IMG/VR virus record: IMGVR_UViG_3300009527_000006
Coordinates: 28,026-92,025 of that record
DNA from: a virus
Direction: 5' to 3' (one strand)
Length of the DNA: 64,000 nucleotides
Positions 2,184 to 53,436 of this stretch are shown piece by piece. Under the pieces are notes generated by a model, which saw only the letters and a list, made by a program, of their open reading frames with translations, searched no databases and was not told where the DNA came from. Every line of letters starts with the position of its first letter. Positions within the stretch are counted from its first letter, which is position 1. Made by a program: the position numbers and the translations under genes.

Positions 2184-3086
2184 TTATCTAGTCATAATGT
2201 AAACTTTTGCTACAGAAGAATATAAATCGTCAATATCATTTGTACGAGAAGTATTATCACCGTCTAAATCTTCATTGTCTGACATAAACATTGCATTACC
2301 ATAACGTCCTTCAATTCTTTTGATAAAATGGTCTACTTTACGTTCTTCCTCATCAGTTAATCCACTATAATCACCATCTATTAAAGCAGATAGTGCCCAT
2401 GTAGGAACTGTGAAATCTACTGTCGAGGAATCAGTGTCCTCTGGTTCATGAGATTCTTGGACAGGCTGATTTTGTTGAGGTTGCTGCTGATTTTGTTGCG
2501 ACTGTTGAGCGGTATTAGCACTATTACCAGCCATATCATATATAAATTGTTTAATTTTTGCAGTAATATCTTGTGGATTGGCAAATGGCATACCCAACTT
2601 AGTAAAATCATTTACAATAGTTTGTGAAACAGAGTTAATGTAGCTCTCAATTTTAGCATTATTCGGCATTGTTTTAGCTTGTTGTATTTTTTGATTACCT
2701 TGCTGCTGTAATGCTTGGCCTCTTTGAGAGAGCGTATTGTTAGAGCCATCTATATTTGTTCCATATACAGAATTAGCCGCATTAGCAGCTTTATTTGCCA
2801 GATTACCAGCAGCATTATAAGCACTGCCTTTCAATTTATCTACCATTCCCCCGGCTGCTTGTTTTGCACCCTGATATGCCCCCTTTGCTTGGCCAAATCG
2901 GGATTTCATTCGATCAAACATTCCTTCCTCAACCAATCTTTTTTTAGTAATAGAGTCACAGCTCTCAAGCAATTTAAGCACTTCGGCAAAATCTCCGCGT
3001 TTTTCTGCAAGAGCTATTTTATCATAATTGGTAGAAAATTTAGCGGTACTTTCTACGCACAACATAGTTAATTCATCGTATCTCAT
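2184..3086 (-). CDS. Ala/Gln/Gly-rich protein, possible packaged virion protein
   Basis: 300 residues, no recognised family. The first 45 residues are helical and charged ('MRYDELTMLCVES...'). Residues 55-110 form an Ala/Gly/Asn-rich amphipathic stretch ('GAYQGAKQAAGG', 'NLANKAANAANS'), followed by a Gln-rich linker (about 190-210) and an acidic C-terminal domain. The gene is divergent from the tape-measure gene, and the two starts sit at the mirror-image ends of one inverted repeat with late-promoter-like halves. Late expression and a virion role are inferred. Confidence 0.6.
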   Translation of the reverse strand: MRYDELTMLCVESTAKFSTNYDKIALAEKRGDFAEVLKLLESCDSITKKRLVEEGMFDRMKSRFGQAKGAYQGAKQAAGGMVDKLKGSAYNAAGNLANKAANAANSVYGTNIDGSNNTLSQRGQALQQQGNQKIQQAKTMPNNAKIESYINSVSQTIVNDFTKLGMPFANPQDITAKIKQFIYDMAGNSANTAQQSQQNQQQPQQNQPVQESHEPEDTDSSTVDFTVPTWALSALIDGDYSGLTDEEERKVDHFIKRIEGRYGNAMFMSDNEDLDGDNTSRTNDIDDLYSSVAKVYIMTR

Positions 3087-3119
3087 TTATATTATTTAGC
3101 ATAATAAATAATATAAATG
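3084..3119. promoter_or_regulatory. Mirror-image pair of late-promoter-like start sites
   Basis: A perfect 15-bp inverted repeat (arms 3084-3098 and 3105-3119, 6-nt centre GCATAA). Each arm read outward is TAAATAATATAAATG, and its ATG is the start codon of a divergent gene (2184-3086 minus, 3117-5450 plus). The same 15-mer, unmirrored, precedes the gene at 5456. Each arm holds a T4-late-like TAAATA box 6-9 bases from the ATG and no Shine-Dalgarno sequence. I read it as back-to-back late promoters giving leaderless mRNAs; the hairpin could also act on RNA. Confidence 0.6.
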
Positions 3120-5450
3120 GCTTCCTCATTCAAAGACTTCTTTATTGCAGTAGACAAATATCTTCAATCTAACGGAAAGGGAAGTGGAGGTAATACTATT
3201 GCACAGAAAATAAACAATCTTTTTGATAATACTAAATCACCTTTGTCTCTGAAAAGCGGCAGTGTTTTAGAAAAACTTTATCTTAATATGAATAGCTTTG
3301 CTGATAGCATAGCATTAAATGAAATAATAATAAATGATTTGGGAAAAGATATTATTAATACTGGAGTTTCTAAAAACTTCACAAAAATTAATACAGGAAT
3401 AGGTAAATTTATCAGGAGTATGGATGCCATGTCTTCTGCGGCAGGCAATGTTACTTCTAAATTATCAGCATTTAAAATAAAAGGTCTTAATACCAGACCT
3501 GCAATTTCTGGAGCAGGAATAGCAGATGCATTTTCTAGCAGATTTACATCAACCAGAATAGATACTAATACTCGTAATGGGGTTCGTTACAGTCGTGCAT
3601 TAGATGTAAATTTAAGTAAAAATAGCATAACAAACTTTCTTAATGAATGGACTATACGAAGCATCTATATCGGTAAAAATATTCCAATGCAAGTATCTAT
3701 TCATAATATAGATGAAATTATTGCTCGCTGGACTAATCGACTTTCAACAGAAAAACTGCAAACACAGAACCCTAATGGAACTTTAGATACTAAAAATCTT
3801 TTGAATGTAAGAATAATGGGATTGTCAGATGAAGTATCAAAATCAATCCGTCAATTATCTGGAAAATCTAACAAAGACTCTGAAAATTCAGGGGGATTGT
3901 TTGGCAGAATTTTCGGAACATTTGCTAGCGGAATCGCACTGTTTGGAACTCTGGCAGGATTAAATTATCTACTCAATAATACTCCAGTAGGAGGGATGAT
4001 TAAAAATTTCTTATGGGCAGGAATAGATTTGGTATGGGAAAATAGAGAACCTATTGGTGAATTTTTATATGAGCAAATAAATGGAGTATATAATTTAGTT
4101 ACAGGTTACTTCAAAAATCTTTTCAATTTATTAGGTCTTAAAGACAGATTAGGAAAAGAAGGTGAAGGAACTGCGGTTTTTTTGACTAGATTAGCCCATA
4201 AAATCATAGGATTCTTTGATACTAAATTTCTTGGAGGATTGGGAGGAAAAATAGCTAATTCTGTAAAAAGTATAGCAAAATTACCCGAAACTATTCTTCA
4301 GAAAATTGGAGGATTTTTAATGGGGGACCAGATTAAACAAGGTCTGGATACTGTAATGAAAGAATTTTCTAAATCTTGGAATGTTAAAAATTTAATAACA
4401 GGAACAAAAACTCTGTTCAAAGGCGCTGGACTCACCAAAATAGCCGGATATGCCCTATCTCTTGTGGGAAAAGTGACAAAGTTATTAAAATTTATACCCG
4501 GATTAGGAGCTATTATATCATTTTATTCAGCTTATCAAAGATTTTCAGCAGGTGATTATGTAGGAGGGCTTATTGAGCTTGGAGGAGCTATTCCGGTAGT
4601 CGGCTGGGGATTCATGGCTCTTAATATGTATCTTGATGCCGCAAAGAGTGAAGAAAAAAAATCTTGGAATGCTTCAATAGGCGATTTCTTAGGAAAGGCT
4701 GGTGATTGGATCATGAAAAACGTCAAAAATATTCCATTAATAGGGGGTTTAGTTGACATAGGAGTAGGAATTTATGATATAATTAAGGGAGATTATAAGA
4801 AAGGTTTTGAAGAAATTTTCAACGGACTTTTCAGAATAACTCCTTTTGGATGGATAGCAGAAGCATATTCTGCTATCACCGCTATTACAGAAAATTCCGA
4901 TGATTCTTCTTCAAAAAACATACTTCCTAACAAAGGAAATTCTATTCCTATAGTTCAATCTATTATGGAATTTTTTACAAAACCAATTGATGCCTTTGTA
5001 GGATTTATAAAAGAATTATCTAATTCGGTTATAGGAAAACTAGCATCTATGGGAAAATCTGGTATTTTAGATACTCTTTGGAATTTCTCTATGCCGGGAA
5101 TGGCATATAATGCGGTCAAAAAAAATTCTAATTCTACTTCTTTAGACGTAAAATCTAAAGAACTAATTAGAGGCGTTGCTGCTACTTCTGAAAAAACTGC
5201 TGCGGTTAAAGAGGATAGCAACAATATAATATATGCAGAACTAGAGAAAACAAGAAGTAGTATTGACGAAATGAAAGTTTTATTAGAGATGTATCTAAAA
5301 ACTTCTATAGAGGGGATAGCAGGCATGGTAGATGCGTCTCTCAGAGGCTCACAATTAGTATCAGATACAATAGTAAAGACTACCCAAAATAATCAAAGAC
5401 CTGTTGATACGAGCATATCAGAATTCCGTAGAAATATAGATCGTAAATAA
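3117..5450 (+). CDS. Tail tape-measure protein (T4 gp29-like position)
   Basis: 777 residues, T4-type tail length ruler by position: directly before the gp48-like tube-cap gene, as gene 29 precedes gene 48 in T4. Two hydrophobic Gly-rich blocks (about 265-285 and 440-500) and a third near 545-590 contain repeats of the type 'GDYVGGLIELGGAIPVVGW' and 'GDYKKGFEEIFNGLF', common in tape-measure proteins that thread the membrane during DNA injection. The C-terminal 120 residues are helical. It is longer than T4 gp29 (about 590 residues). No muralytic domain is recognisable. Confidence 0.65.
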   Translation: MASSFKDFFIAVDKYLQSNGKGSGGNTIAQKINNLFDNTKSPLSLKSGSVLEKLYLNMNSFADSIALNEIIINDLGKDIINTGVSKNFTKINTGIGKFIRSMDAMSSAAGNVTSKLSAFKIKGLNTRPAISGAGIADAFSSRFTSTRIDTNTRNGVRYSRALDVNLSKNSITNFLNEWTIRSIYIGKNIPMQVSIHNIDEIIARWTNRLSTEKLQTQNPNGTLDTKNLLNVRIMGLSDEVSKSIRQLSGKSNKDSENSGGLFGRIFGTFASGIALFGTLAGLNYLLNNTPVGGMIKNFLWAGIDLVWENREPIGEFLYEQINGVYNLVTGYFKNLFNLLGLKDRLGKEGEGTAVFLTRLAHKIIGFFDTKFLGGLGGKIANSVKSIAKLPETILQKIGGFLMGDQIKQGLDTVMKEFSKSWNVKNLITGTKTLFKGAGLTKIAGYALSLVGKVTKLLKFIPGLGAIISFYSAYQRFSAGDYVGGLIELGGAIPVVGWGFMALNMYLDAAKSEEKKSWNASIGDFLGKAGDWIMKNVKNIPLIGGLVDIGVGIYDIIKGDYKKGFEEIFNGLFRITPFGWIAEAYSAITAITENSDDSSSKNILPNKGNSIPIVQSIMEFFTKPIDAFVGFIKELSNSVIGKLASMGKSGILDTLWNFSMPGMAYNAVKKNSNSTSLDVKSKELIRGVAATSEKTAAVKEDSNNIIYAELEKTRSSIDEMKVLLEMYLKTSIEGIAGMVDASLRGSQLVSDTIVKTTQNNQRPVDTSISEFRRNIDRK

Positions 5451-14646: not shown

Positions 14647-14654
14647 TATTTATA
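14647..14654 (-). promoter_or_regulatory. Exact T4-type late promoter box TATAAATA
   Basis: TATAAATA on the minus strand, followed by TGTGC and then ATG (14641). A T4-like late start about 6-7 bases downstream of the box would fall at the start codon, giving a leaderless mRNA. Confidence 0.65.
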
Positions 14655-19622: not shown

Positions 19623-19644
19623 AAGACTTTAGACTAAAACAAGA

Positions 19645-19734
19645 CCCGAACAAAGAAACTGGAGACAACAGCTCAGCATAGTTATTCTCCTATATTAGTT
19701 CTGTGTTCGCTGTGTCTCAGTTTAGACGTTCGCC
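19645..19734 (+). repeat. attC site 2
   Basis: R'' CCCGAAC (19645-19651), L'' AAACTGGAGAC (19656-19666), L' GTCTCAGTTT (19714-19723), R' GTTCGCC (19728-19734). The stem has the same geometry as attC1 but different bases on both sides (AAACT/AGTTT for CGGAT/ATCCG; GAGAC/GTCTC for CAGAC/GTCTG), again with one extra G. R'' complements R' of attC1 (GTTCGGG). Confidence 0.9.
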
Positions 19735-19758
19735 TAACAACACACAGCCTCTACTACA

Positions 19759-20031
19759 ATGTATAAAACTCAGCCTAAATATCGGGCCATCATTCGTTTC
19801 TCCTTGGATAAGGATGAGAGTTCAAAGTTTCGCAACTCTGTTATTAGAAAACTTAGAAAAGCTAAATTCACCAACACAAATAAGACTGGTTCTTGGGAGA
19901 CTCCATCCGCAGATTTATCTATTATTCAGTCATTAGTCTGCACCGTTATGAACGAACTAGGTAAAGTAACGAATGACGACGGAAAGCCCGTAACATTGGA
20001 CCATATGTGGATGTGCATAGATAAAGTTTAA
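19759..20031 (+). CDS. Cassette C2 forward ORF
   Basis: 90 residues, starting 24 bases after attC2. Basic N-terminal half with 'RAIIRFSLDKDESSKFRNSVIRKLR' (ferredoxin-like beta-alpha character), then 'LSIIQSLVCTVMNEL' and 'DHMWMCIDKV'. No family is recognised. Its stop overlaps by 4 bases the stop of the convergent reverse ORF. No Shine-Dalgarno. Confidence 0.6.
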   Translation: MYKTQPKYRAIIRFSLDKDESSKFRNSVIRKLRKAKFTNTNKTGSWETPSADLSIIQSLVCTVMNELGKVTNDDGKPVTLDHMWMCIDKV

Positions 20032-20198
20032 TCTTCTTCGTTCCACCTAGGGTCATCATCTGACCATTCATTCCATCCAGATTCGATTTCGTCTGAGTCT
20101 GAATTGATAACTATTTTTGTTTTAGATTCAGTATGACACCCACAGTTGCCACATACGCCGCTAATAACGACTTCTATAGGTTGAGAATTATTTTTCAT
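20028..20198 (-). CDS. Cassette C2 reverse ORF, small acidic CxxCxC protein
   Basis: 56 residues: 'MKNNSQPIEVVISGVCGNCGCH', then an acidic Trp-rich tail ('SGWNEWSDDDPRWNEED'). The CGNCGCH cluster could bind a metal. It starts 7 bases after AATAAATA (20206-20213) and 39 bases from attC3. It is convergent with the forward ORF and shares 4 bases at the stops. Too small for family assignment. Confidence 0.5.
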   Translation of the reverse strand: MKNNSQPIEVVISGVCGNCGCHTESKTKIVINSDSDEIESGWNEWSDDDPRWNEED

Positions 20199-20205
20199 AA
20201 TCAGC

Positions 20206-20213
20206 TATTTATT
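20206..20213 (-). promoter_or_regulatory. Late-promoter-like box AATAAATA inside cassette C2
   Basis: Minus-strand AATAAATAGCTGATT-ATG. It shares the string AAATAGCT with the box at 26511-26518 near attC7, suggesting a common cassette promoter. Confidence 0.5.
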
Positions 20214-20236
20214 GGCAGCTCTTGCTATAAACAAGA

Positions 20237-20325
20237 GGCGAACAAAACGGATGCAGACAACGCTCTATAAGTTTTATGTCACATTCAGAGTTTAGTATTC
20301 GCGTGTCTGATCCGAGACGTTCGTC
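20237..20325 (+). repeat. attC site 3
   Basis: R'' GGCGAAC (20237-20243), L'' CGGATGCAGAC (20248-20258), L' GTCTGATCCG (20305-20314), R' GTTCGTC (20319-20325). Nearly identical to attC1 and attC6. R'' complements R' of attC2 (GTTCGCC). Confidence 0.9.
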
Positions 20326-20879
20326 TTATGAAATGCCACCCAGTGAGTCTGCGCTTTCTTGCCGCTACGGTGGCCGTAGAGCGGGCGTTCTGGCGTGAGT
20401 GCCAGCACTTCGCGGAGCGGGATTTCAGCCTCGCACCATTTGAAGATCATCGTTCCATTCACTTTCAGGACACGGAAGCATTCAGCGAATCCCGCCCGCA
20501 GGTCGTCGCGCCATGTCGCATCCAGAAGCCCGAAGTCGAAGGCGATGCGTCCCGTTGCCCCGGCTCCTTTATGGAAGTGCGGCGGATCGAATACCACATG
20601 CCAGAACGACTCATCAGGGAACGGCATGTTTCGGAAGTCCACCACCATATCAGGCGCGACGGTTTTCGGGGTGCGCCCGATGGTTCCCGGCGTTCCCACG
20701 TCGATGATTCGCGTGCCTTGGCGTTTGTCCACATACAGGGCGCGGTCATCCTGTTTATCGAACCAGAACATTCTGGTTGAGCAGCACGCATCCAATACCG
20801 GAGGCAAAGACGAACAAGTCGCTGCATGCAACCCGCTTTCTGCGTGCTGTTGGCGCGTTAATGTGAAGAGGTCATCCAT
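20292..20879 (-). CDS. Cassette C3: GC-rich SAM-dependent methyltransferase
   Basis: Class I methyltransferase-like protein, about 195 residues from ATG 20879 (206 from ATG 20912). Motifs: 'VVDFRNMPFPDESFWHVVFDPPHF', where DPPH is the catalytic-type motif seen in DNA/RNA adenine methyltransferases, and 'FRVLKVNGTMIFKW' for strand 5. Base composition is far more GC-rich than the rest of the window, so it is a recent acquisition. It runs opposite to the attC direction. Both possible starts lie inside attC4, and its last nine or so residues and stop come from attC3, so both protein ends depend on neighbouring sites. The target is unknown. Confidence 0.8.
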   Translation of the reverse strand: MDDLFTLTRQQHAESGLHAATCSSLPPVLDACCSTRMFWFDKQDDRALYVDKRQGTRIIDVGTPGTIGRTPKTVAPDMVVDFRNMPFPDESFWHVVFDPPHFHKGAGATGRIAFDFGLLDATWRDDLRAGFAECFRVLKVNGTMIFKWCEAEIPLREVLALTPERPLYGHRSGKKAQTHWVAFHKTNVSDQTREY

Positions 20880-20928
20880 AGGTGTATCGGTGTATTGTGT
20901 CAGCGGGTGCATGAGCTAGGCGTTCGCC
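20809..20928 (+). repeat. attC site 4 (different sequence family)
   Basis: R'' GACGAAC (20809-20815), L'' GCTGCATGCAACCCGCT (20821-20837), L' AGCGGGTGCATGAGC (20902-20916), R' GTTCGCC (20922-20928). L'' and L' pair perfectly except for two extra bases in L'' (G and A), the classic extrahelical bases of attC. Its stem sequence is unrelated to the other sites and is GC-rich like its cassette. R'' complements R' of attC3 (GTTCGTC), the only site with that R'. Confidence 0.9.
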
Positions 20929-20937
20929 TAAAAACCA

Positions 20938-21192
20938 ATGCACTCATCACAAACTAATTCGCAGATGATAATCGCGCACATGCTAGCCAATGATAACGGA
21001 GCCATTTTTCATTTTGAGGACTATAGATTCAATGTTCGTCCTGAAGATCGAGTCACTTCCAGCAATTGGCCTAGTGGTATAACATTGCACATTAGACTTT
21101 CTAGCACAGGGCTGAGCGCAGCTTCTTACGAGAACGAGACAGTGCTCGGTGAATATGTGGATGAAAGAGGAACTCCCATTTTGCCTTATTAG
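20938..21192 (+). CDS. Cassette C4 forward ORF
   Basis: 84 residues, starting 9 bases after attC4. It has 'MIIAHMLANDNGAIFHFEDYRFNVRPEDR' and a beta-rich end 'ITLHIRLSSTGLSAASYENETVLGEYVDERG', ending 'PILPY'. No family is recognised. Its stop overlaps by 4 bases the stop of a convergent reverse ORF. A/C-rich leader without Shine-Dalgarno. Confidence 0.6.
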   Translation: MHSSQTNSQMIIAHMLANDNGAIFHFEDYRFNVRPEDRVTSSNWPSGITLHIRLSSTGLSAASYENETVLGEYVDERGTPILPY

Positions 21193-21428
21193 GAATTATT
21201 ACTTGGATCATTCGGAATTGCATGGCCGAATCTCAGCACTTCACCATTGTCATATAGATAGGCCATTCCACGAATTCCAAAAGGACCATTATACTTACCT
21301 TTCTCATTCTGTATTTTTATGTTCTCGTGCATAGTCCATCTTCGCCAGATTCCAATAGCTTCATCATACGGAAGTGCCTCTGGATCTGGGTATTTGGTTA
21401 AGTCTATTGGGTTGTCTAAATTTAACAT
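21189..21428 (-). CDS. Cassette C4 reverse ORF
   Basis: 79 residues from the ATG at 21428. N-terminal 'LDNPIDLTKYPDPEALPYDEAIGIWRRW', then a beta stretch 'FGIRGMAYLYDNGEVLRFGHA'. No family is recognised. A variant box AATAAGTA (21438-21445) lies 9 bases upstream and attC5 about 40 bases upstream, the same layout as C5. Confidence 0.55.
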   Translation of the reverse strand: MLNLDNPIDLTKYPDPEALPYDEAIGIWRRWTMHENIKIQNEKGKYNGPFGIRGMAYLYDNGEVLRFGHAIPNDPSNNS

Positions 21429-21437
21429 ATTCAAAGC

Positions 21438-21445
21438 TACTTATT
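21438..21445 (-). promoter_or_regulatory. Variant late box AATAAGTA inside cassette C4
   Basis: AATAAGTA on the minus strand, 9 bases before the reverse ORF start. It differs by one base from the AATAAATA of C2 and has the same variant position and spacing as the box in C5. Confidence 0.35.
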
Positions 21446-21468
21446 CGTAGTCAAATGCTAAAACAAGA

Positions 21469-21558
21469 GGCGAACAAAGAAACTGGAGACAACAGCTCAG
21501 CATAGCTATTCTCCTATATTAGTTCTGTGTTCGCTGTGTCTCAGTTTAGATGTTCGCC
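21469..21558 (+). repeat. attC site 5
   Basis: R'' GGCGAAC (21469-21475), L'' AAACTGGAGAC (21480-21490), L' GTCTCAGTTT (21538-21547), R' GTTCGCC (21552-21558). The body is nearly identical to attC2, but the R'' differs in the way needed to complement R' of attC4 (GTTCGCC). Confidence 0.9.
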
Positions 21559-21573
21559 CAACCTCACCACACC

Positions 21574-21759
21574 ATGTCTATTATAAAGAAACCTAGTTCG
21601 TGCGTATTTTGCAGATCTGCACTGATTAAAGGTCCGATTAAGAGAGATCGTAATTTAAATGAAACTATTGAAATGAAGAGTGTCGTTTATATTTGTGAGC
21701 AATGTAATTTTGTTCACGAATTTAATATTCATACTACTAAAAAATCTAAGATGAAGTAG
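21574..21759 (+). CDS. Cassette C5 forward ORF, small zinc-ribbon protein
   Basis: 61 residues from the ATG at 21574, 15 bases after attC5; an in-frame ATG at 21550 lies inside attC5 and is unlikely. Two Cys pairs, 'CVFC' near 11-14 and 'CEQC' near 43-46, are separated by about 30 residues, the spacing of a zinc ribbon. The rest is basic. It may bind nucleic acid. A truncated relative with a CxFC motif lies in C7 (26556-26633). Confidence 0.6.
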   Translation: MSIIKKPSSCVFCRSALIKGPIKRDRNLNETIEMKSVVYICEQCNFVHEFNIHTTKKSKMK

Positions 21760-21910
21760 TAGACACGAAACATGCAAGCCCATCACATTGAGCATTCCAC
21801 ATTTCATCCAGAATTCTATCATTATTTTCCTGTTCTTCTTTGGAAAGTCTCATCCAATGACACTGCTCCACTTCTAACCATTCACGTATCTTTGCTTTTA
21901 TCCATTGCAT
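21746..21910 (-). CDS. Cassette C5 reverse ORF
   Basis: 54 residues: 'MQWIKAKIREWLEVEQCHW', then an acidic helix 'RLSKEEQENNDRILDEMW' and 'NAQCDGLACFVS'. Three Cys, one His. It overlaps the forward ORF 3' end by 14 bases in convergent orientation. CATAAGTA (21920-21927) is 9 bases upstream and attC6 40 bases upstream. Confidence 0.5.
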   Translation of the reverse strand: MQWIKAKIREWLEVEQCHWMRLSKEEQENNDRILDEMWNAQCDGLACFVSTTSS

Positions 21911-21919
21911 AGTAGTCAA

Positions 21920-21927
21920 TACTTATG
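21920..21927 (-). promoter_or_regulatory. Variant late box CATAAGTA inside cassette C5
   Basis: CATAAGTA 9 bases upstream of the minus-strand ATG at 21910. Same variant and spacing as in C4. Confidence 0.35.
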
Positions 21928-21949
21928 AAGCTAATAAACAGAAACAAGA

Positions 21950-22038
21950 GGCGAACAAAACGGATGCAGACAACGCTCTATAAGTTTTATGTCACATTCA
22001 TAATTTTATATTCGCGTGTCTGATCCGAGACGTTCGGG
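21950..22038 (+). repeat. attC site 6
   Basis: R'' GGCGAAC (21950-21956), L'' CGGATGCAGAC (21961-21971), L' GTCTGATCCG (22018-22027), R' GTTCGGG (22032-22038). Nearly identical to attC1 and attC3. R'' complements R' of attC5. Confidence 0.9.
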
Positions 22039-22061: not shown

Positions 22062-22232
22062 ATGAATGAATCTACGTTAGTTGATTGCGCTAAATGGTTA
22101 TATGAAAAGCAGCAAGAGAACCTAAAAGCCGGAAAGAATCTACTTTGGCAGCCACATATAATAACCGTTCTTTTAAACTTACAAAAATCTAAAGTCATAC
22201 TTTTAAGATATAAACTCTCGATTTTTTGTTAA
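22062..22232 (+). pseudogene. Cassette C6 forward ORF, probably truncated by the IS insertion
   Basis: 56-residue reading frame starting 23 bases after attC6 ('MNESTLVDCAKWLYEKQQE...'). Its last ten or so codons are antisense to the end of tnpB, so the natural 3' part was probably removed or displaced when the IS607-like element inserted near 22150-22195. Confidence 0.4.
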
Positions 22233-23421
22233 ATTCCTGCTTCACAGACGGGCTAACCAAAGTCGTTTCCGACAATGGTGAACTCCCATCTCCACAGGCT
22301 TGAATTCCCGAAGAACTTTCGGTATAAATTTGTTTCAGATTCAAACTCGCATTTAAATCTCTATCTATTTTCATATCACACATTTTACATTCAAATACTC
22401 GGTCTGTCAACTTCAAATCTGAATTTTTCCATCCGCAACATGAACATAATTTAGAACTGGCGTAGAAAGTATCTGCGAAGACAACTTTTCTATTATTCCA
22501 TTTCGCTTTATATTCAATTTGGCGACGAAATTCATAAAGTCCTACGTCACTGATAGCCTGAGCCAAACAGTGATTTTTCAACATATTGCTTACTTTCAAA
22601 TCTTCCAACACAATTACATTGTTTTTCTGTATTATGTTAGAAGTGATTCTATGTAAGCAATCTTTACGAATATTTGATATGTGATAATGTAATTTTGCTA
22701 ACTTTTGTTTTGCTTTTCCATAATTTTTACTTCCTTTTTTCTTTCTTGATAATTGTTTTTGTTTGCGTTTTAGTCTCTTGAGATTTTTCTTTAATGCTTT
22801 TGGATTTTCATAAGTTGTCCCATCTGAGCAAGTAGCTAAAGTTTTAATACCTAAATCAATTCCTACTACCTCATTCTTGGCGTTAGAATGCTCTCTGTCA
22901 GGTGTCTCTACTTGAACTGATACAAACCACTTACCCGCACGTTTCGAGACTGTAGCAGACAGTATTTTACAATCTGTTGGGATGTAATCTTTCTCGGATA
23001 ATTTGAGTTTGTCGATTCGTGGTAGCTTAATGTAATCAGATTCAACTGAAATCGCGCCGTCTAGTCTGAAGGATTGCTTTTCGTTTTTCTTAGATTTAAA
23101 TTTTGGAAATCCTTTCTTACCTTTAACTTTCTTTTTACAACGAGTGAAGAAATTTTGAAATGCTTTATCACAATCTCTTAACGCATTTTGTGGAGAAGTC
23201 TTGCTTGAATTATACATCCAAGGAACATCTGTCTGTTTTAGCTTGTTTAATTCTCTATGAATCTCAATAGCATTTTGAATTTTCTCTTTCTTATCAAATT
23301 GTTCTTTCTTTTTAGCTAATGCCCAATTATATGCCCATCTAGCGCAACCAATATGCTGTAATAACAAGGTTTGTTGCTTGTTATTTACATCTAGCTGAAC
23401 TTTATAGGCGCGGAGAATCAT
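22195..23421 (-). CDS. tnpB: TnpB, RuvC-like RNA-guided nuclease
   Basis: 408 residues from the ATG overlapping the methyltransferase stop (ATGA). An N-terminal helical and Lys-rich region with 'GCARWAYNWALA' leads to the RuvC-like core: Asp in 'GIDLGIKT' (about 195), Glu in 'VLEDLKVSNM' (about 279), zinc ribbon CSCC...CKMC (about 332-353), last Asp in 'DRDLNAS'. All catalytic residues are present and length is normal, so it looks intact. TnpB proteins cut at a target next to a short motif using an RNA from the element's end; the RNA would map around 22040-22250. Confidence 0.9.
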   Translation of the reverse strand: MILRAYKVQLDVNNKQQTLLLQHIGCARWAYNWALAKKKEQFDKKEKIQNAIEIHRELNKLKQTDVPWMYNSSKTSPQNALRDCDKAFQNFFTRCKKKVKGKKGFPKFKSKKNEKQSFRLDGAISVESDYIKLPRIDKLKLSEKDYIPTDCKILSATVSKRAGKWFVSVQVETPDREHSNAKNEVVGIDLGIKTLATCSDGTTYENPKALKKNLKRLKRKQKQLSRKKKGSKNYGKAKQKLAKLHYHISNIRKDCLHRITSNIIQKNNVIVLEDLKVSNMLKNHCLAQAISDVGLYEFRRQIEYKAKWNNRKVVFADTFYASSKLCSCCGWKNSDLKLTDRVFECKMCDMKIDRDLNASLNLKQIYTESSSGIQACGDGSSPLSETTLVSPSVKQEFNKKSRVYILKV

Positions 23422-24283
23422 TTTAATCTTTCTAAACAAATATCATAATACTCTTTTTCTTTTTCGATGCCGATAAACTGACGATTGAGATTTTTGGCGG
23501 CAACCAGAGTTGTTCCCGAACCAGCAAAAGGATCGAACACCAAATCCTCTTTATTTGAGATAGACTTCACCAAGTCTTCCATCATATTCAACGGTTTTTC
23601 ACATGGATGTTTGTCTTTTCTTTGCGAGACTATTTCATATTCAATTACATCTTCAAATGAAGATAGCGATAACGAATCAAATTTTCGTTTGGATAATTTA
23701 ATACCTAAATCTCCTCTAATTTGGGAAGAAATTTTGGAGATGGAAAGCATCTACCACATTCCCAATTTGATACTTGACCACCATTATTAACGTTTCCATA
23801 AGCACCCAATATTTCAGTAAGCTCTTTTACCGATACCCCCTTAGAAATGCGGGCATTCTTAATGTCATTTGGATAAGAATCTTGTGAAAAATAAATTATT
23901 CTTTCTGATGCTGGATATGGTCGTCTAAGGGAATTTTTATTACACTTATTTTTCCAACCCTCACTCCCCTTATTTGGAAAAGTTTTCTTCCACACAATTT
24001 CAGATTGGAAATTGAAATATTGATTTATCAGGACGGCTAAAAATGGAGCCAATGATGGCTTACAAAAAACGTAACCACTACAAGTATTTTTCATCTTCGG
24101 TTTAAGAATTTTGAAAAAATAATCAAACCATTTTAAAAATTCAGTATCGTTATCATGTTCATTGTCCCAAGTGTGCTTTTTAACATTGTGATAAGGTGGA
24201 TCGGTGACAAGGATATCCACGCTTCCATCTGGAATGTCCTTCATCAATTCTAAACAGTCGCCATGCCAAATTTCTTGTTTCAT
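23418..24283 (-). pseudogene. DNA (amino) methyltransferase with single-base frameshift
   Basis: The N-terminal piece (24283 to 23705) has 'DILVTDPPYHNVKKHTWDNE' (catalytic DPPY) and 'FLKWFDYFFKILKP'. The C-terminal piece (to 23418) has 'DPFAGSGTTLVAAKNLNRQFIGIE' (SAM site). DPPY before FxGxG fits a beta-class N4/N6 enzyme. The target region carries a small XRE-like helix-turn-helix (about 158-192). The pieces overlap out of frame near 23705-23716: adding one T to GAGATTTAGG restores 'LEEILGIKLSKRK'. So either a one-base deletion or a programmed shift. The start overlaps the endonuclease stop and has AAGGAGG upstream. Confidence 0.75.
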
Positions 24284-27109: not shown

Positions 27110-28465
27110 TTAGGTTGTCATAAATTCTTCCATCGAGAATTTCTTTTTCAATATACTTGACCTAGAATCTTCATATGATTGCTCAGTATCTTCTTCTTCA
27201 AAAAATCTCAGTGTGCTATAATCAATATTCAAGTATCCCCCGCCATTGAGAGCACCGTCTCTAGATTTCTTACCCTTAACTAATACTCTGTTAAGTTCAC
27301 GGTCTTCATCTGTTTGTGACATGACTGTAAGATTATCAAAATCGCCTAGCATTGAATATGAACCAGCCATATTATCCAAGTCAGCAGAATTATTTCGATG
27401 TCCGTCTCTATTGAGTTGTGCAGGAGTTAATAGAGGGCATTCAAAAATATAACTGAGCCCTCTTACTTCTTGAGTAATATACTGAAATTCGTCGTGCTTA
27501 GGAACATTGCTTTTTGTAGATTTACATAGAGTAATATAATCCAGTATTATCACCGATGGTTTGAAATTTTTCTTTCTTTCTAATTTTTTAATAAAGGATT
27601 TAATGTTAGTAGGAGTCACTGATTTAGCCGCGAACTCTTTGATTACTAATCTAGAAGTTTTATCAGAAATAAAATCATCCACATACTCTCTATACTCTAA
27701 TAGCCTGTCTCCTATTTCTCCTAGAGCAATACCCGTTAACATACCAGAAATTCTACGAGCATATCTTTTTTCACTCATTTCTAAAGTTATAATTACTACA
27801 TCCTCATTCTGTCTGAGAATGTTAGTTCCAATGTTTCCCACCAAAAGTGATTTTCCGACATTAGTGGAGCCAGCTACGCCATATATTGCTCGCCCTTCTT
27901 TAAACATTCCTCCACCAAATGCTTCATCCACTATCTTATATCCGGTGCTTAGAAAAACATCCTTTTCAGTTAAAATAGATTCTACCCTACTTCTTTCGGC
28001 AAAATATTCCAACCCTAGATTATCTACTAATGAAATATTAGATATAGTTTCTTGTTCAGTTTGAAAATCATCTAAATCTATTTCTTGTTTTTCTGTCTTA
28101 TCATCAATAGCCTTTTCTAGAAGATTTTCTGTTTTTCTCTGCTTTATAAAATACTCTGCATTAGCAAGCAATTCGTCTTCATTACATTCATCCGCAATAT
28201 TTTCATTTTTTATAAGATCAATCGCTTTTTTAAGATGTTCTTTATTTTTAGTAGTATTAAACCGGGTTTTTAATTCTGTAAAATTAGGAACTGCGGACCT
28301 TTCTACATAAAAATCTTTAATAGTCTGTGCTATTGCAGAGAAGTTTTCGTTTTTGAAAATATCTGCTCCAATATATTCTATGCAAGAACCTAGTAATATT
28401 CCATCTTTTTTGAGAAGATTCTTCATAAGAATCTTCTCAAAAAAATCTAAATCAATTTTGCTCAT
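27110..28465 (-). CDS. 41: Replicative DNA helicase, T4 gp41-like (DnaB family)
   Basis: 451 residues. The N-terminal helical domain (1-140) includes 'SCIEYIGADIFKNENFSAI' typical of DnaB-family proteins. The RecA-like core has Walker A 'GVAGSTNVGKSLLVGN' (about 205), 'VVIITLEMSEKRYARRISGM', Walker B 'PSVIILDYITLC' and 'LLTPAQLNRDG' (Gln sensor). It unwinds the fork 5' to 3' and loads the primase. It follows uvsX as in T4, where uvsX-40-41 are adjacent. Confidence 0.9.
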   Translation of the reverse strand: MSKIDLDFFEKILMKNLLKKDGILLGSCIEYIGADIFKNENFSAIAQTIKDFYVERSAVPNFTELKTRFNTTKNKEHLKKAIDLIKNENIADECNEDELLANAEYFIKQRKTENLLEKAIDDKTEKQEIDLDDFQTEQETISNISLVDNLGLEYFAERSRVESILTEKDVFLSTGYKIVDEAFGGGMFKEGRAIYGVAGSTNVGKSLLVGNIGTNILRQNEDVVIITLEMSEKRYARRISGMLTGIALGEIGDRLLEYREYVDDFISDKTSRLVIKEFAAKSVTPTNIKSFIKKLERKKNFKPSVIILDYITLCKSTKSNVPKHDEFQYITQEVRGLSYIFECPLLTPAQLNRDGHRNNSADLDNMAGSYSMLGDFDNLTVMSQTDEDRELNRVLVKGKKSRDGALNGGGYLNIDYSTLRFFEEEDTEQSYEDSRSSILKKKFSMEEFMTT

Positions 28466-41395: not shown

Positions 41396-42686
41396 TTTTT
41401 CCATAGAATAATTCCATTGCCTTTTCCGAACAATAAGACTGAAACTGTGCAAATGAGCCGTTTTTATAAATACTATCAAAATCAGAAATAGTCTTTTCTT
41501 TCAGTTCTGGCCAGTCTCTGAGTATATTGCAGTATACATAATCTTTTGCTTCTGGAGAAAGAACATCCATATGTATTTTCTTATTCATTCTACCTGCTCG
41601 AATAAGAGCAGAGTCTAATTTCTCTGGATGATTAGCAGTCATTATAGTAAAGACTTTATCATTTTTTTCAGTATCACTGAGAGCATTCAATAAAGTATTA
41701 AACGTGAGCAATTGCTTAGTATGGCACGAATCCGCTAAAACATTAATTCTTTCATTGAATACAGTATCTATATCTTCTATAAGAAGAATAGTGCCGCTAC
41801 TTGAAATAGATTTGTAATACTTTATAAATTCAGTATCACTCATGTTTGCTAAGTTTATGACCACTACTGGAATGTCCAATTCACGCGCAGCTTCTATAAC
41901 CATTCTAGATTTACCTGTTCCGGGAGAACCTGTGATGAATGCAGAGTCATGCCAGATTAGTTTTCTTTCAGCAAACCATTTAGAAGAATTTAACCAAAAA
42001 CTGATACTCTGTTTAAGTTTTATATATTCTTTAGAATAGAAATATTTAGCATTATTTTTAGATTTTTCTAAAAATTCAAAATAATTAGAATAATCATAAC
42101 CATATATCTTTGCCTTGCTTTGTAATACCGAAATATCAAATCCCTCCGCGAAATTACCATCATCACCAACTATATCAGGAGCACCGCGATCTTCTTTATT
42201 GCTATCATCATTGTCTATGTCTTTTTTATCTCCGCCAGATCTTTGGATAATTCTGAAACGGGTGCCGTCTCTTTTCTCTTCAGGCACGGCATGTAAAGGA
42301 TCGAGTTTTCTAATATATTCAGAATATATCTTATCAAAATTAAATGTTCCAAAAAGATATGTAATCATATACACGCCCCAATAAGGATCTTTTTTAACTA
42401 TTAAAGGAGTCAGTCCTTTATAAAGTAAAATAATTTGCTTTTCATCTAAAATAGGCATCTGCCCTTCTCCTACTCTACAAAATATTATCTTTCTTTTTCC
42501 CCATCTAATTACCTTAGAATCTTTCAAGATATAATCTTTGACAAATACGTCAGACATTGACGCAGGGATAATATCAGTTCTTATAAAGATATTAGTCACC
42601 TCAATAACATAGCTCTTCAATTGTGTCCAAAAAGCTATTATTCCAGTAGCAAATGCTGCAATAGTTAAATGTGATAATTCAGGCAT
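41388..42686 (-). CDS. Bcs1-like AAA ATPase with N-terminal membrane helix
   Basis: 432 residues. An N-terminal hydrophobic segment (about 5-25, 'LTIAAFATGIIAFWTQLKSYV') precedes a beta-rich domain (40-125), then an AAA module: Walker A 'GSPGTGKSRMVI' (about 247), Walker B 'GTILLIEDIDTVF', sensor 1 'TIMTANHPEKLD', Arg finger 'ALIRAGRMNKKI'. This TM + beta domain + AAA order is that of mitochondrial Bcs1, a protein translocase. A role at the membrane or in host take-over is possible. It is embedded between gp47 and glycosyltransferase genes. Confidence 0.75.
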   Translation of the reverse strand: MPELSHLTIAAFATGIIAFWTQLKSYVIEVTNIFIRTDIIPASMSDVFVKDYILKDSKVIRWGKRKIIFCRVGEGQMPILDEKQIILLYKGLTPLIVKKDPYWGVYMITYLFGTFNFDKIYSEYIRKLDPLHAVPEEKRDGTRFRIIQRSGGDKKDIDNDDSNKEDRGAPDIVGDDGNFAEGFDISVLQSKAKIYGYDYSNYFEFLEKSKNNAKYFYSKEYIKLKQSISFWLNSSKWFAERKLIWHDSAFITGSPGTGKSRMVIEAARELDIPVVVINLANMSDTEFIKYYKSISSSGTILLIEDIDTVFNERINVLADSCHTKQLLTFNTLLNALSDTEKNDKVFTIMTANHPEKLDSALIRAGRMNKKIHMDVLSPEAKDYVYCNILRDWPELKEKTISDFDSIYKNGSFAQFQSYCSEKAMELFYGKNE

Positions 42687-42693
42687 ATAAATT

Positions 42694-43701
42694 TTAGTAA
42701 TTTCTATGCAGAGAATACAATACTTTCATACGCTCTGCAACTTTTTTCTTCATCTCTTCATCAAGTTTCCAGTCATCATTAGAAAGTTCTTTACAATACT
42801 TTTCTATAGATTCTACAACATCGACTAATTTAAAATCTTCAACACTTTTATCTTCTACATTTTTAGCAATATCTTTTGTAACTAACCGTGTTTTATGCAT
42901 TGCGGGATTGGAAGATTCTATCTTACTGAGCAATTCTTTGGTCGGATTTACTGCTAATATATAGTTTCCTTTAATATCATATAAATCATTTTCATCATAT
43001 ACGTATTTGAATTTAGGTGATTCTTTATTTTCTATCTTTTCTACAGTATTAGCGCTAGCGTCTAATAAAAAAACATATTTAGATTCTCCTGCATCATTAA
43101 AATCTAATGAATATGCACTGCCTGTATATATAAACGGCTTGCTATCATAAAGACGTTCTTGATATAAATGATAATGTCCAGAAAAGCAAGCCTTACCAAC
43201 CTTTTTCATAAGATCACCAGCCTTAAAACCGTGCTGCGAAAGATGGCCCTTAACTACTTCAAAAGAAACAGTATCAAAATGCCCCATCAAATAATCACAA
43301 TCAGGAATATCTTCTAGTTTAACCGCCCACGGGCAAAAGGCTATACCATCTTTAACACATACTTGATCATGCACATTTATATTAGAATAATTTTTGAAAG
43401 CACATAATGAATGAACTTTAGGTGAATTGTCATATACACAATCATGATTGCCTACACATATATCTATAGAATATTCTGCCAATTCATCAAAAAAAGCAGT
43501 TACTGCATTCATAACTTCTACTTTAATATGAAATCTATGATCGAAAATATCTCCAAGAAATATTATATTTTTAATATTTCTAGATTTACAAATATCCTTC
43601 AACCAAAAACCATAATTTTTCAATATACTGAGAAATTTTTCATCACCCTTATATTTTCCGGCATGTATGTCTCCTACAATCAAATAATAATTATTCTTCA
43701 T
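42694..43701 (-). CDS. 47: Recombination endonuclease subunit, T4 gp47-like (Mre11/SbcD)
   Basis: 335 residues from the ATG at 43701, which overlaps the gp55 stop; nine codons upstream also are open. Metallophosphoesterase motifs: 'GDIHAGK', 'FLGDIFDHR', 'GNHDCVYD', 'SGHYHLYQ' and 'YTGSAYSLDF'. It is the nuclease partner of gp46. T4 gp47 is 339 residues, so the domain content is the same. Confidence 0.9.
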   Translation of the reverse strand: MKNNYYLIVGDIHAGKYKGDEKFLSILKNYGFWLKDICKSRNIKNIIFLGDIFDHRFHIKVEVMNAVTAFFDELAEYSIDICVGNHDCVYDNSPKVHSLCAFKNYSNINVHDQVCVKDGIAFCPWAVKLEDIPDCDYLMGHFDTVSFEVVKGHLSQHGFKAGDLMKKVGKACFSGHYHLYQERLYDSKPFIYTGSAYSLDFNDAGESKYVFLLDASANTVEKIENKESPKFKYVYDENDLYDIKGNYILAVNPTKELLSKIESSNPAMHKTRLVTKDIAKNVEDKSVEDFKLVDVVESIEKYCKELSNDDWKLDEEMKKKVAERMKVLYSLHRNY

Positions 43702-44428
43702 TATTTTCACAAGAAACATCATCATCATACATTATCTTCTGTCTCCTCACGTTCTTCCATGATTCTGAAGCATAAACTTTTTCATACATTTCTTCCTGAA
43801 AACGCTTATGAGTATCAGTTCTTTTATTTTCATCTTTAATTCTGTTAATAAAACAATTCCAGCATATTCTAGAATAAAAACCGAAAGGATTGTTTTTGAA
43901 CACCACTAGTTCATTTCCATCTTCATCAAATTCTAATGAATCTTCTTCTCCAAGAATTTTAATTACAGATACTAATTTTTTATTTCGCATCTTTTCAAAT
44001 TTAACAGTTGTCCTGCCATCCGATTCATCCACGTGCTTCAACAGAACCTTTCCTCTAGTATTAAGAGAGAACAACTGTTCTTTAACAGCCTTGAACATTT
44101 TAATCTTAGCATCTCCAACCATTTCTTCTAGCCACGAATACTGATTGAAATTTCCCAATCTTTTCATATTTTCAGGAATATCACTTATCATTTTTGCTAA
44201 TTTTTCAGTAATATAAGAATCTGGATTTTTTTCACATAAATCATAGTATTCCTTAAAGGCCAACCACATATCATCTTTATTGATATATTCATTGGTCTTT
44301 TTATCTTTTTTTTCTTTTCTTTTTCTAGTCGGTCTTTCAGAAAGATCAAGAAGTTCTTCTATAGATTCATCACTATCTATTATACTTTCATCTAAGTCAA
44401 TATATTCGGGTTCAAAGTCGTCTTTCAT
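43691..44428 (-). CDS. 55: Late-transcription sigma factor, T4 gp55-like
   Basis: 245 residues (T4 gp55 185). The core 'LVVFKNNPFGFYSRICWNCFINRIKDENKR' region corresponds to the region-2-like segment of gp55 that recognises the TATAAATA late promoter ('NPFAYFT...NAFLRRI' in T4). The N-terminal 60 residues are a strongly acidic then basic extension. Its presence agrees with the TATAAATA/TTAAATAA boxes ahead of virion genes here. It overlaps UvsW by 4 bases. Confidence 0.85.
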   Translation of the reverse strand: MKDDFEPEYIDLDESIIDSDESIEELLDLSERPTRKRKEKKDKKTNEYINKDDMWLAFKEYYDLCEKNPDSYITEKLAKMISDIPENMKRLGNFNQYSWLEEMVGDAKIKMFKAVKEQLFSLNTRGKVLLKHVDESDGRTTVKFEKMRNKKLVSVIKILGEEDSLEFDEDGNELVVFKNNPFGFYSRICWNCFINRIKDENKRTDTHKRFQEEMYEKVYASESWKNVRRQKIMYDDDVSCENNEE

Positions 44429-47477: not shown

Positions 47478-47482
47478 AAGAA

Positions 47483-47531
47483 GACTGCTCAACTGAGATA
47501 ACTTGTGGTTATTTATCTCAGTTGAGCAGTC
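47483..47531. promoter_or_regulatory. 18-bp perfect inverted repeat just upstream of the metallopeptidase gene
   Basis: Arms 47483-47500 and 47514-47531 (GACTGCTCAACTGAGATA and complement), 13-nt loop. On the minus strand it ends 5 bases before ATG. No T-run follows, so it is at best a poor terminator. Attenuator, RNA processing site or operator are alternatives. Confidence 0.55.
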
Positions 47532-47558
47532 TGGATTTGGGTCAGATTATCTAATTTT

Positions 47559-51113: not shown

Positions 51114-52454
51114 TTACAACAAAAATAAATTTTCTTTTGGTCTTGTAACGGCTGTATAAAGAATACGCTTCATTTCTTCATCATTCTGATTCAGAGTAAT
51201 ATCACTATAAACTACAAAAGCATTAGTGTAAGTGCTTCCTTGAGAACAGTGGCATGTTACTGCATAATTATAATTAACATAATCGAAATGATCTTTATAC
51301 TCAAAATATGCAATCCAATTTTGACTTTTCTGATAAGAAGTAGTTTGTGCTTTTGCATGTTCTTCCATAACTTTAAGTTTATGTGAAAACATTCCCTGAG
51401 AACTCTCATGCAAAATTTTAATAGTATCAGTTCTTTCAATACCTTCGACTAAACATTCATAGTATTGATATGTGTCATCTCCAATTTTAACAGTTTTAAT
51501 TTCTATTTTCTTAACATTCAATTCATCATTTATACTGAAAATGACAGCATCTCCTCTTTTAATAGGTCGGTCTACAATAAGTTTTTCTTGTAGAACAATT
51601 TTAGGTGCAGAATTGCCATATTTCATTTTTCTGATAACTTTATTAAATTTATCTACAGTAGCATTTCTCCATGCCAATACTTTACAGTAATCTGCATTTT
51701 TATCAAATTCATCAGAACAAAAATAGTGATCTAAAAGAGAATTTACTACTTCTGGTTGGTGTTTGTTCAATACTGCTAAACCTCTTCCATCAACAAAATT
51801 CTTTTGTCCCGGTGTTAGTTCTATATTATCAAAATTATATAATATATCTTGTGAAAATTCAATAATAGGATTTCCTTTTGCCTGACGAACAACTTCTGTA
51901 AGAGAAGTAATTTCGATATTATATTTTTTACGAGATTCTTCTATCATAGGAATAGAGTGCTCATGATTCACGGGATTTATCTGATTAGGATCGCCTACAA
52001 AAATAACTTTTATTCCTGTTTTATTTTGATTTTGTAATTCATGAAACACTTCGTCACTTATCATAGATGATTCATCAATAATAAGAAGATCAAACATAGA
52101 TACTTTACTACGTTCTTTAGGGTCTTTTTCAAAAACCTCTTTACCATTTGCAGTAATCTTATGTTTTAGACCTAAAATAGAATGTAGTGTAGAAAATTTA
52201 ACTTTGTCTCTGTATTTTGCCGGAAGCATGTCTTTTACAACTTTAGTAGCTTTGTTAGTAGTAGCAGTAACAGCTACTCTATTAAATTTAGCTTCATCTA
52301 CAAATTTACAAATAAGTTGAATAATACTAGTAGATTTACCACTACCAGCACAACCTGTAAAAAGATAATAATTGCTATCTGCTGAAGATTCTATAAAATT
52401 CCACAATTTGTCAAAACTTTCTTGTTGATGATCTGTTAATGTAACTGCTTTCAT
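51114..52454 (-). CDS. dda: Dda-like SF1 DNA helicase
   Basis: 446 residues (T4 Dda 439). Walker A 'FTGCAGSGKSTSIIQL' (about 33), Walker B 'LLIIDESSMISDE', 'FVGDPNQINPV' (motif III) and the C-terminal 'YNYAVTCHCSQGSTYTNAFV' (motif V) and 'ILYTAVTRPKENLFLL' (motif VI). It is a 5' to 3' helicase for replication start and fork bypass. Confidence 0.9.
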   Translation of the reverse strand: MKAVTLTDHQQESFDKLWNFIESSADSNYYLFTGCAGSGKSTSIIQLICKFVDEAKFNRVAVTATTNKATKVVKDMLPAKYRDKVKFSTLHSILGLKHKITANGKEVFEKDPKERSKVSMFDLLIIDESSMISDEVFHELQNQNKTGIKVIFVGDPNQINPVNHEHSIPMIEESRKKYNIEITSLTEVVRQAKGNPIIEFSQDILYNFDNIELTPGQKNFVDGRGLAVLNKHQPEVVNSLLDHYFCSDEFDKNADYCKVLAWRNATVDKFNKVIRKMKYGNSAPKIVLQEKLIVDRPIKRGDAVIFSINDELNVKKIEIKTVKIGDDTYQYYECLVEGIERTDTIKILHESSQGMFSHKLKVMEEHAKAQTTSYQKSQNWIAYFEYKDHFDYVNYNYAVTCHCSQGSTYTNAFVVYSDITLNQNDEEMKRILYTAVTRPKENLFLL

Positions 52455-52476
52455 TGTATGTTATATGTATACCAAT

Positions 52477-52505
52477 AATATACCACAAAAACCAAAGGCT
52501 TGCAA
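52477..52505 (-). promoter_or_regulatory. Sigma-70 promoter for dda
   Basis: Minus strand: TTGCAA, 17-bp spacer, TATATT; leader about 15 bases. The -35 box lies inside the palindrome AGGCTTGCAAGCCT. Confidence 0.75.
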
Positions 52506-52651
52506 GCCTTTTATGAGGCATTTAATTTTTTTTTGCATTAATATTAAAAATTTTACGCATTAATATTAAGAATGTTGAGAATATTAGAAAGATTGGATAT
52601 TATTATGGATAATTTGGCGAGTGTTTTTTTCTTCTTTGTTTGAAATTAGCT

Positions 52652-52727
52652 ATAAATCACCCCCCTACCCCCCATAAGAATTTTGAGAAGTAGTTGTGTG
52701 ATTTATCGCGGTAGAATACTTCTCAAA
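52652..52727. ncRNA. Candidate pseudoknot: interleaved 9-bp and 11-bp inverted repeats
   Basis: Stem 1 arms ATAAATCAC (52652-52660) and GTGATTTAT (52698-52706). Stem 2 arms TTTGAGAAGTA (52682-52692) and TACTTCTCAAA (52717-52727). Both pair perfectly, and their order (1-2-1'-2') is that of an H-type pseudoknot. The first loop holds CCCCCC-TA-CCCCCC (52660-52673). Whether it acts as RNA or DNA is unknown. Confidence 0.55.
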
Positions 52728-52839
52728 CAAATTTAGAAAAAATCACTCTAAGTGCCCTTTTCTTCTTCGTCCCGAAACCAGCTACCTCTTACCGTTTTAT
52801 TCGCAGAAGCACCAAAACTGCACGGCTCGAAGATAAAAT

Positions 52840-52870
52840 TCCCATTTCCCCTAAAATGGGATACTTTTTA
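52840..52870 (+). terminator. Terminator-like hairpin
   Basis: TCCCATTT/AAATGGGA with 6-nt loop, followed by TACTTTTT. Weak by itself; could end a plus-strand transcript through the pseudoknot region. Confidence 0.5.
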
Positions 52871-52962
52871 TGTGAAATTACTTAACCACACAGTTTAGTT
52901 CATTGCAAGTTTTTATTTTCATTTTTGAAATAAAGTTTTTCTGTCTTAAATAGTAAAGACTT

Positions 52963-53436
52963 ATGACACCTAAATTTGAAAAACTTGTAAATGAATATCT
53001 GACAGATTCCTATATAGATGATGTAGTAGAAGAAGCAGGCATGGATTTATCTCAACAAGGAACTGGAGGTATATCAAAAATGGCCGCAGGAGCCTCTCCA
53101 AAGCCTCAGCCTAGCAATCCTATATCAAGTCCCAAACCTGCTGCAAAACCTCCTGTAACAGCCCCTAAAGTGGCAACTACCCCTCAACAAGGAAATGTTG
53201 ATAGAATGGCCAATCTTAATAATGCGATTACTGGTAATGATTATGATTCAGCGGCTGCTGCATTAGCAGATATTACCGTGGATGATCCTGATTTTTTCGA
53301 TAAACCAGAGTCTGAGGTAGTTCAAAAATGGGCAAGTGATCCTAATGTGTTAAAATCTTTACAGACTGCACAAGCAAATCGTATTAAAAAAATGGCACAA
53401 ACTGCATCTAGCTTAGAGAATGATTTTGTAGAATAA
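52963..53436 (+). CDS. Candidate packaged virion protein, Pro/Ala linker
   Basis: 157 residues. N-terminal 'MTPKFEKLVNEYLTDSYIDDVV' (targeting-helix-like), a Pro/Ala/Lys linker (about 40-75) and a helical acidic C-terminal domain ('NAITGNDYDSAAAALADI'). Preceded by TTAAATAG. With its neighbour it starts a plus-strand late block. No family recognised. Confidence 0.55.
   Translation: MTPKFEKLVNEYLTDSYIDDVVEEAGMDLSQQGTGGISKMAAGASPKPQPSNPISSPKPAAKPPVTAPKVATTPQQGNVDRMANLNNAITGNDYDSAAAALADITVDDPDFFDKPESEVVQKWASDPNVLKSLQTAQANRIKKMAQTASSLENDFVE

Follow-up and report, generated by a model that had tools for sequence, protein, structure and literature searches.

Genes and sequence elements at the locus

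The window, i.e., the whole 64,000-nt stretch of viral DNA analysed here (positions 28,026 to 92,025 of the 92-kb contig IMGVR_UViG_3300009527_000006), contains a 508-nt intergenic region (contig positions 80480-80987) from which a dda-like helicase gene is transcribed leftward and the gene for a 157-aa protein rightward (Table 1). The region had been described in the initial annotation as the only large one free of genes; it is the largest gap without tRNAs, but an 846-nt gap that holds tRNA genes is larger. The genes to the right had been called late virion genes in the initial annotation, an assignment that is putative: neither of the two proteins encoded next to the gap on this side matches a PHROG or Pfam family, and the first recognisable right-hand proteins beyond them are a nuclease, a polynucleotide kinase and a thymidylate kinase. 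Besides Dda, the phage has a DnaB-type helicase, UvsX, a T4-like DNA polymerase, SbcCD-like subunits and a late sigma factor homologue (PHROG 234, window 43691-44428); RNase HI was not detected in the window's contig. In the phage collection, the DNA polymerases closest to its own are ~31% identical. T4-type late promoter words (TATAAATA) directly precede leftward genes at window positions 14647, 16734, 17808 and 61913; in the nearest relative described below, the 148-aa homologue of the first rightward gene is preceded by the same word, at a place occupied by CTTAAATA in the window.

Promoter-like sites pointing leftward and rightward are present in the gap along with small terminator-like hairpins, and the motifs TTGAGAA and TTGCAA recur in it beside imperfect palindromes. 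Downstream of the leftward promoter-like element, at a distance of ~270 nt, lies an AT-rich tract of tandem 22-bp units, for which we obtained a repeat score of 19 compared to a shuffle maximum of 16; no tandem repeat was reported for this tract by TRF. Sites resembling the leftward element also occur directly before dda (52505) and before another leftward gene of the relative. A pattern scan for the leftward element returned 15 stretches, one of which is the known relative; most of the others are located inside genes, and we read these others as chance matches. The C6-TA-C6 tract, whose minus strand is G-rich, has the most extreme G4Hunter value in the contig. At gathering thresholds, Rfam 15 identified only tRNAs in the window, and a search of both gaps by E-value gave nothing near a gathering score, only sub-threshold chance matches, such as RgsA in the relative's gap (E 0.013; 19.3 bits vs. 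a gathering score of 88.4).

Table 1. Positions of genes, repeats, folds and promoter-like sites at the divergent junction (window coordinates)
Feature	Position	Strand	Remarks
dda-like helicase gene	51114..52454	-	PHROG 325 Dda-like helicase, E 4.8e-87
Divergent intergenic region, candidate replication origin region	52455..52962		largest gap without tRNAs; GC-skew minimum near; strand-corrected GC3 breakpoint t = 3.85
Second promoter-like site, same type as the leftward element, before dda: TTGCAA-17-TATATT	52477..52505	-	sequence match
AT-rich tract, ~2.5 tandem 22-bp units, candidate unwinding element	52522..52576		AT 0.81
Sigma70-like site, rightward, TTGAGA-17-TATTAT	52575..52603	+	10/12 match; equalled in 17% of shuffles
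Long nested imperfect hairpin	52619..52748		MFE -35.2 kcal/mol (z -5.1) on plus, -47.7 kcal/mol (z -8.1) on minus; ranks third among the contig's strongest fold loci
S1 left arm (9 bp), ATAAATCAC	52652..52660	+	paired in the nested fold too, mean P 0.96-0.99
G6-TA-G6 (plus strand: C6-TA-C6)	52660..52673	-	G4Hunter -2.0; absent from the relative
S2 left arm (11 bp), interleaved with S1, TTTGAGAAGTA	52682..52692	+	P(paired) 2e-4 (plus), 3e-13 (minus) in nested ensembles
S1 right arm, GTGATTTAT	52698..52706	+	perfect repeat
S2 right arm, TACTTCTCAAA	52717..52727	+	52723-52727 common to the outer nested stem
Small hairpin TCCCATTT/AAATGGGA, terminator-like in both directions	52840..52861		sequence
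Leftward promoter-like element, AAAAACTTGCAAT-N16-TTAAGTA	52879..52914	-	start predicted near 52873; 13-mer common with the relative's gap; identical TTAARTA spacing
157-aa protein, first rightward gene	52963..53436	+	29% identical homologue at the matching place in the relative

Interleaved inverted repeats within a nested hairpin

Exactly as reported in the initial annotation, two perfect inverted repeats, S1 and S2, are interleaved within 76 nt in the arm order 1-2-1'-2'; the C6-TA-C6 tract lies between their left arms, and their arrangement corresponds to the two interleaved complementary helices of an H-type RNA pseudoknot. The accompanying claim that chance formation is unlikely is borne out by simulation: among sequences simulated with matched dinucleotide content, none of 40 genomes of 92 kb had a 9/11-bp interleaved pair within 76 nt, and the fraction of 508-nt intergenic regions with such a pair was 5e-5, a value that is somewhat optimistic given that the stem lengths were fixed after observation. 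S1/S2 is the sole 9/11-bp interleaved case across the contig. Under a looser setting (8/8 bp within 120 nt), the contig contains 14 interleaved pairs compared to 8.6 expected, so that the long S1/S2 pair alone stands out. The folded DNA or RNA element in the gap is real and not a product of chance.

The repeats are enclosed by a longer nested hairpin (arms 52619-52643 and 52723-52748), which had been overlooked. Its fold was not equalled by any of 200 shuffles, and the same segment also folds as a DNA strand (z -4.8). The nested hairpin includes S1 and leaves out S2, because the right arm of S2 overlaps the outer stem. Folds in which S2 was forced are worse than the nested fold by 6 kcal/mol on the plus strand and by 19 kcal/mol on the minus strand; the energy model scores no pseudoknots, and these differences compare nested alternatives only. 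Among isolated hairpins on the plus strand, S2 is more stable than S1 (-11.3 vs. -4.9 kcal/mol). The proposed pseudoknot is probably not the main fold, and the pseudoknot reading of S1 and S2 is weakly supported, given that S2 competes with a better nested hairpin on either strand and is missing in the sole syntenic relative. Thus, of the initial pseudoknot-like reading, the interleaving is real, whereas the nested energies and the relative's gap, which contains nested stems and no interleaved pair, speak against the fold itself. The missing pair weakens, without refuting, a pseudoknot specific to this lineage, and S2 may form as a minor or alternative state. A true H-type pseudoknot acting as RNA, or a bistable switch between the S1-nested fold and S2, would account for an interleaving far above chance and for the stability of isolated S2, but, considering the same energies and the same relative, we regard either of these as very unlikely.

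The G-U pairs favour a minus-strand RNA in the window's hairpin and a plus-strand RNA in the relative's hairpin; because the two genomes point in opposite ways, we rejected this asymmetry as an indicator, and it does not identify the RNA strand. The reading of the hairpin as a terminator between converging genes was likewise rejected, as the flanking genes diverge.

Several other structures were identified in the contig. Its strongest fold lies inside an ORF (contig 3080-3330), where repeated segments have long complementary arms, and among the strongest is a hairpin with a perfect 20-bp stem (AGACTGCTCAACTGAGATAA; window 47480-47540) immediately ahead of a leftward gene or at its 5' end; an unusually strong hairpin is also located inside a 777-aa ORF (window 4800-4950). 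At window 19634-22036, four imperfect palindromes of ~95-110 nt, forming two near-identical pairs (94-96%), separate small ORFs and a 50% GC DNA methyltransferase ORF, in the manner of an attC-like gene-cassette array. In one palindrome pair, the end boxes GGCGAAC and GTTCG(C/T)C pair, the spacers are unpaired, and the inner stem contains one unpaired base. A transposase gene (window 22195-23439; PHROG 506, E 3.4e-123) adjoins the array, and no tyrosine integrase was found in the contig; attC clusters without an integrase are known in virulent phages (PMC9892861).

Comparison with relatives and strand composition

Scans of viral contigs with the Dda, 157-aa, 234-aa and phosphoesterase proteins identified one syntenic relative and one contig that lacks the gap (L005); another candidate (L003) was rejected as an unrelated phage. 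Protein-based scans of genome contigs yielded none, and a DNA search of phage records yielded nothing significant. The nearest relative, IMGVR_UViG_3300043411_000704 (G001), is the sole contig found with an equivalent gap; its Dda is 52% identical to that of the window, and its two right-hand proteins are 29 and 42% identical to their counterparts. The left neighbour of its gap is RNase HI, replacing Dda, and RNase HI is also encoded near the junction in a third, more distant contig (G002). The gap of G001 (460 nt, 41442-41901) is the largest in that contig, divergent and gene-free, and contains a nested hairpin (TTATCAGGT..ACCTGATAA around GGAAGAGAG..CTCTCTTCC; MFE ~-41 kcal/mol, z -4.3 and -5.5) that, after composition correction, is the strongest fold locus of its 80 kb.

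The hairpins of the two genomes have no sequence similarity to each other, and the comparison is one between gaps of a single syntenic pair that are not alignable. Similarity is limited to a 13-mer, ATTGCAAGTTTTT (P = 0.04 vs. shuffles; BLAST E 0.002), which, on the minus strand, is followed by TTAARTA at equal spacing in both genomes. The relative has neither the 22-bp repeats nor the G6TAG6 run, and neither a comparable rightward promoter nor a comparable terminator. A cluster of evenly spaced direct repeats kept in relatives, as in an iteron origin like T4 oriE, was not found, the window having ~2.5 units.

The cumulative GC-skew minimum of the window's contig is located at 81213 (window 53188), ~230 nt past the right end of the gap, and that of G001 at 42369. 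In G002, the minimum (7414) falls at the equivalent divergent junction, which has no large gap or hairpin. Because the genes diverge at the gap, third-position skew was analysed by regression with gene strand and side as predictors. After strand correction, a GC3 breakpoint at the gap gives t = 3.85 in the window's contig, where the best breakpoint, at a distance of ~3.5 kb, gives t = 3.87 (permutation p = 0.018 for any breakpoint). In G001, the best breakpoint is the gap itself (t = 4.35; p = 0.002). Both p values probably overstate the significance, since the gene permutation ignores correlation between neighbours and the genes come from a greedy ORF map. The correction covers two fragmentary contigs, in which gene direction and skew are partly confounded. 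The strand-composition signals in the phage and its nearest relative suggest that the gap is a site of replication start.

A possible replication origin and its alternatives

In phage T4, oriE, oriF and oriG are located at points of transcription divergence with shifts in base composition, and oriF consists of a promoter and an AT-rich unwinding element at which an R-loop forms, its RNA very likely being processed by RNase H (PMC3016281). The switch of transcription direction and nucleotide bias that marks T4 origins is found here in two genomes and in the third contig too. The AT-rich DNA downstream of a promoter at T4 origins may have its equivalent in the tract ~270 nt from the leftward promoter-like element; Dda, which contributes to origin use in T4, has its like in the gene adjoining the gap; and the direct repeats of oriE have a counterpart in the few 22-bp units (PMC3016281). 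Conversely, the review of T4 origins mentions no hairpin, whereas the gap has one; T4 uses several origins, and oriF and oriG have a MotA-dependent middle promoter, a type not recognised here, where an R-loop is only surmised (PMC3016281). ICP1, also a large lytic phage, shows early bidirectional replication from a single internal origin, which was inferred from read coverage in infection and not, as here, from composition alone (PMC7145576).

Among the functions offered in the initial annotation, an origin element gains support from the skew minimum and the strand-corrected breakpoint, which in two genomes fall at the gap or close to it, the divergent genes, and the proximity of Dda or RNase HI. 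From the fold, its position, the skew and the synteny, which are supported here, we infer where the origin lies, and we give an even chance to the gap being an origin region from which a distant T4-like phage replicates bidirectionally, with T4-like logic and the hairpin as a structural part. This reading is the best supported, owing to the T4-like divergence and bias switch, the RNase HI near the junction in the relatives and the Dda in the window. The GC-skew minimum falls at the divergent junction in three contigs, and the strand-corrected side term persists in two; a long hairpin occupies the matching gap of both genomes, which also have the leftward promoter-like element in common. Against it stand the partial confounding of gene direction with skew, the lack of a large gap or hairpin at the skew minimum of G002, the absence of the 22-bp repeats and of G6TAG6 from the relative, the modest significance of the common 13-mer (P = 0.04 only), the opposite G-U strand preferences and the lack of RNase HI in the window's contig.

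That third skew minimum, at a junction without any large gap, together with the promoter-like sites for both directions, would also fit an ordinary divergent promoter region, in which transcription direction and strand-biased mutation cause the skew and the hairpin belongs to the dda transcript or to the rightward gene as a leader or regulatory structure; a leftward leader would indeed bear the hairpin upstream of dda or RNase H. We consider this explanation doubtful, however, because a skew component persists after gene-strand correction in both genomes, and the gap and hairpin are unusually long for a promoter region. A small structured RNA gene, with a rightward transcript of ~260 nt that would begin near 52610, downstream of TTGAGA-17-TATTAT, and run to the terminator-like hairpin (52840-52870), would explain the strong fold and the sites flanking it, but is unlikely: the promoter match is equalled in 17% of shuffles, the relative lacks its counterparts, no Rfam family was matched, and the G-U pairs in the window favour the opposite (minus) strand. 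Least probable is an inverted-repeat DNA site bound by a protein (e.g., a phage regulator or packaging) with no origin; although the imperfect palindromes and the repeated TTGAGAA and TTGCAA motifs would be compatible with such a site, the relative does not share the arms, and nothing places a packaging site at the gap.

If the region is an origin, RNA polymerase would start leftward at the promoter-like element, and the transcript would cover the hairpin segment, including the G6UAG6 tract, before entering the AT-rich repeat tract ahead of dda. There, it may stay hybridised to its template as an R-loop, opening the tract, so that its processed 3' end could prime leading-strand synthesis and the displaced strand could receive the helicase-primase. 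The hairpin might stall the polymerase, hold the region open or serve as a protein-binding structure. At human mitochondrial OriH/CSBII and in plasmid ColE1 RNA II, a G-rich run favours a persistent R-loop that RNase H cuts into a primer (PMC6317783). The putative transcript would similarly have a G-rich run, G6UAG6, downstream of its promoter, but this is a resemblance only, in that the window's run lies inside a hairpin and is missing from the relative; because of the latter, the likeness to the R-loop-stabilising runs may serve as a lead only. That a lytic T4-like lineage has an early origin whose primer transcript is promoter-driven, rich in G and equipped with a hairpin, in convergence with ColE1 RNA II and mitochondrial CSBII, and that this origin adjoins the lineage's own Dda or RNase HI gene, is a speculative and rather improbable proposal. 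The rules of R-loop formation at T4 origins, and the use of R-loops by other T4 origins, are open questions (PMC3016281). If right, the origin reading would place the start of replication in an uncultured phage group without a close relative in the searched phage collection, and would offer a compact way to test for priming of phage origins by structured or G-rich transcripts.
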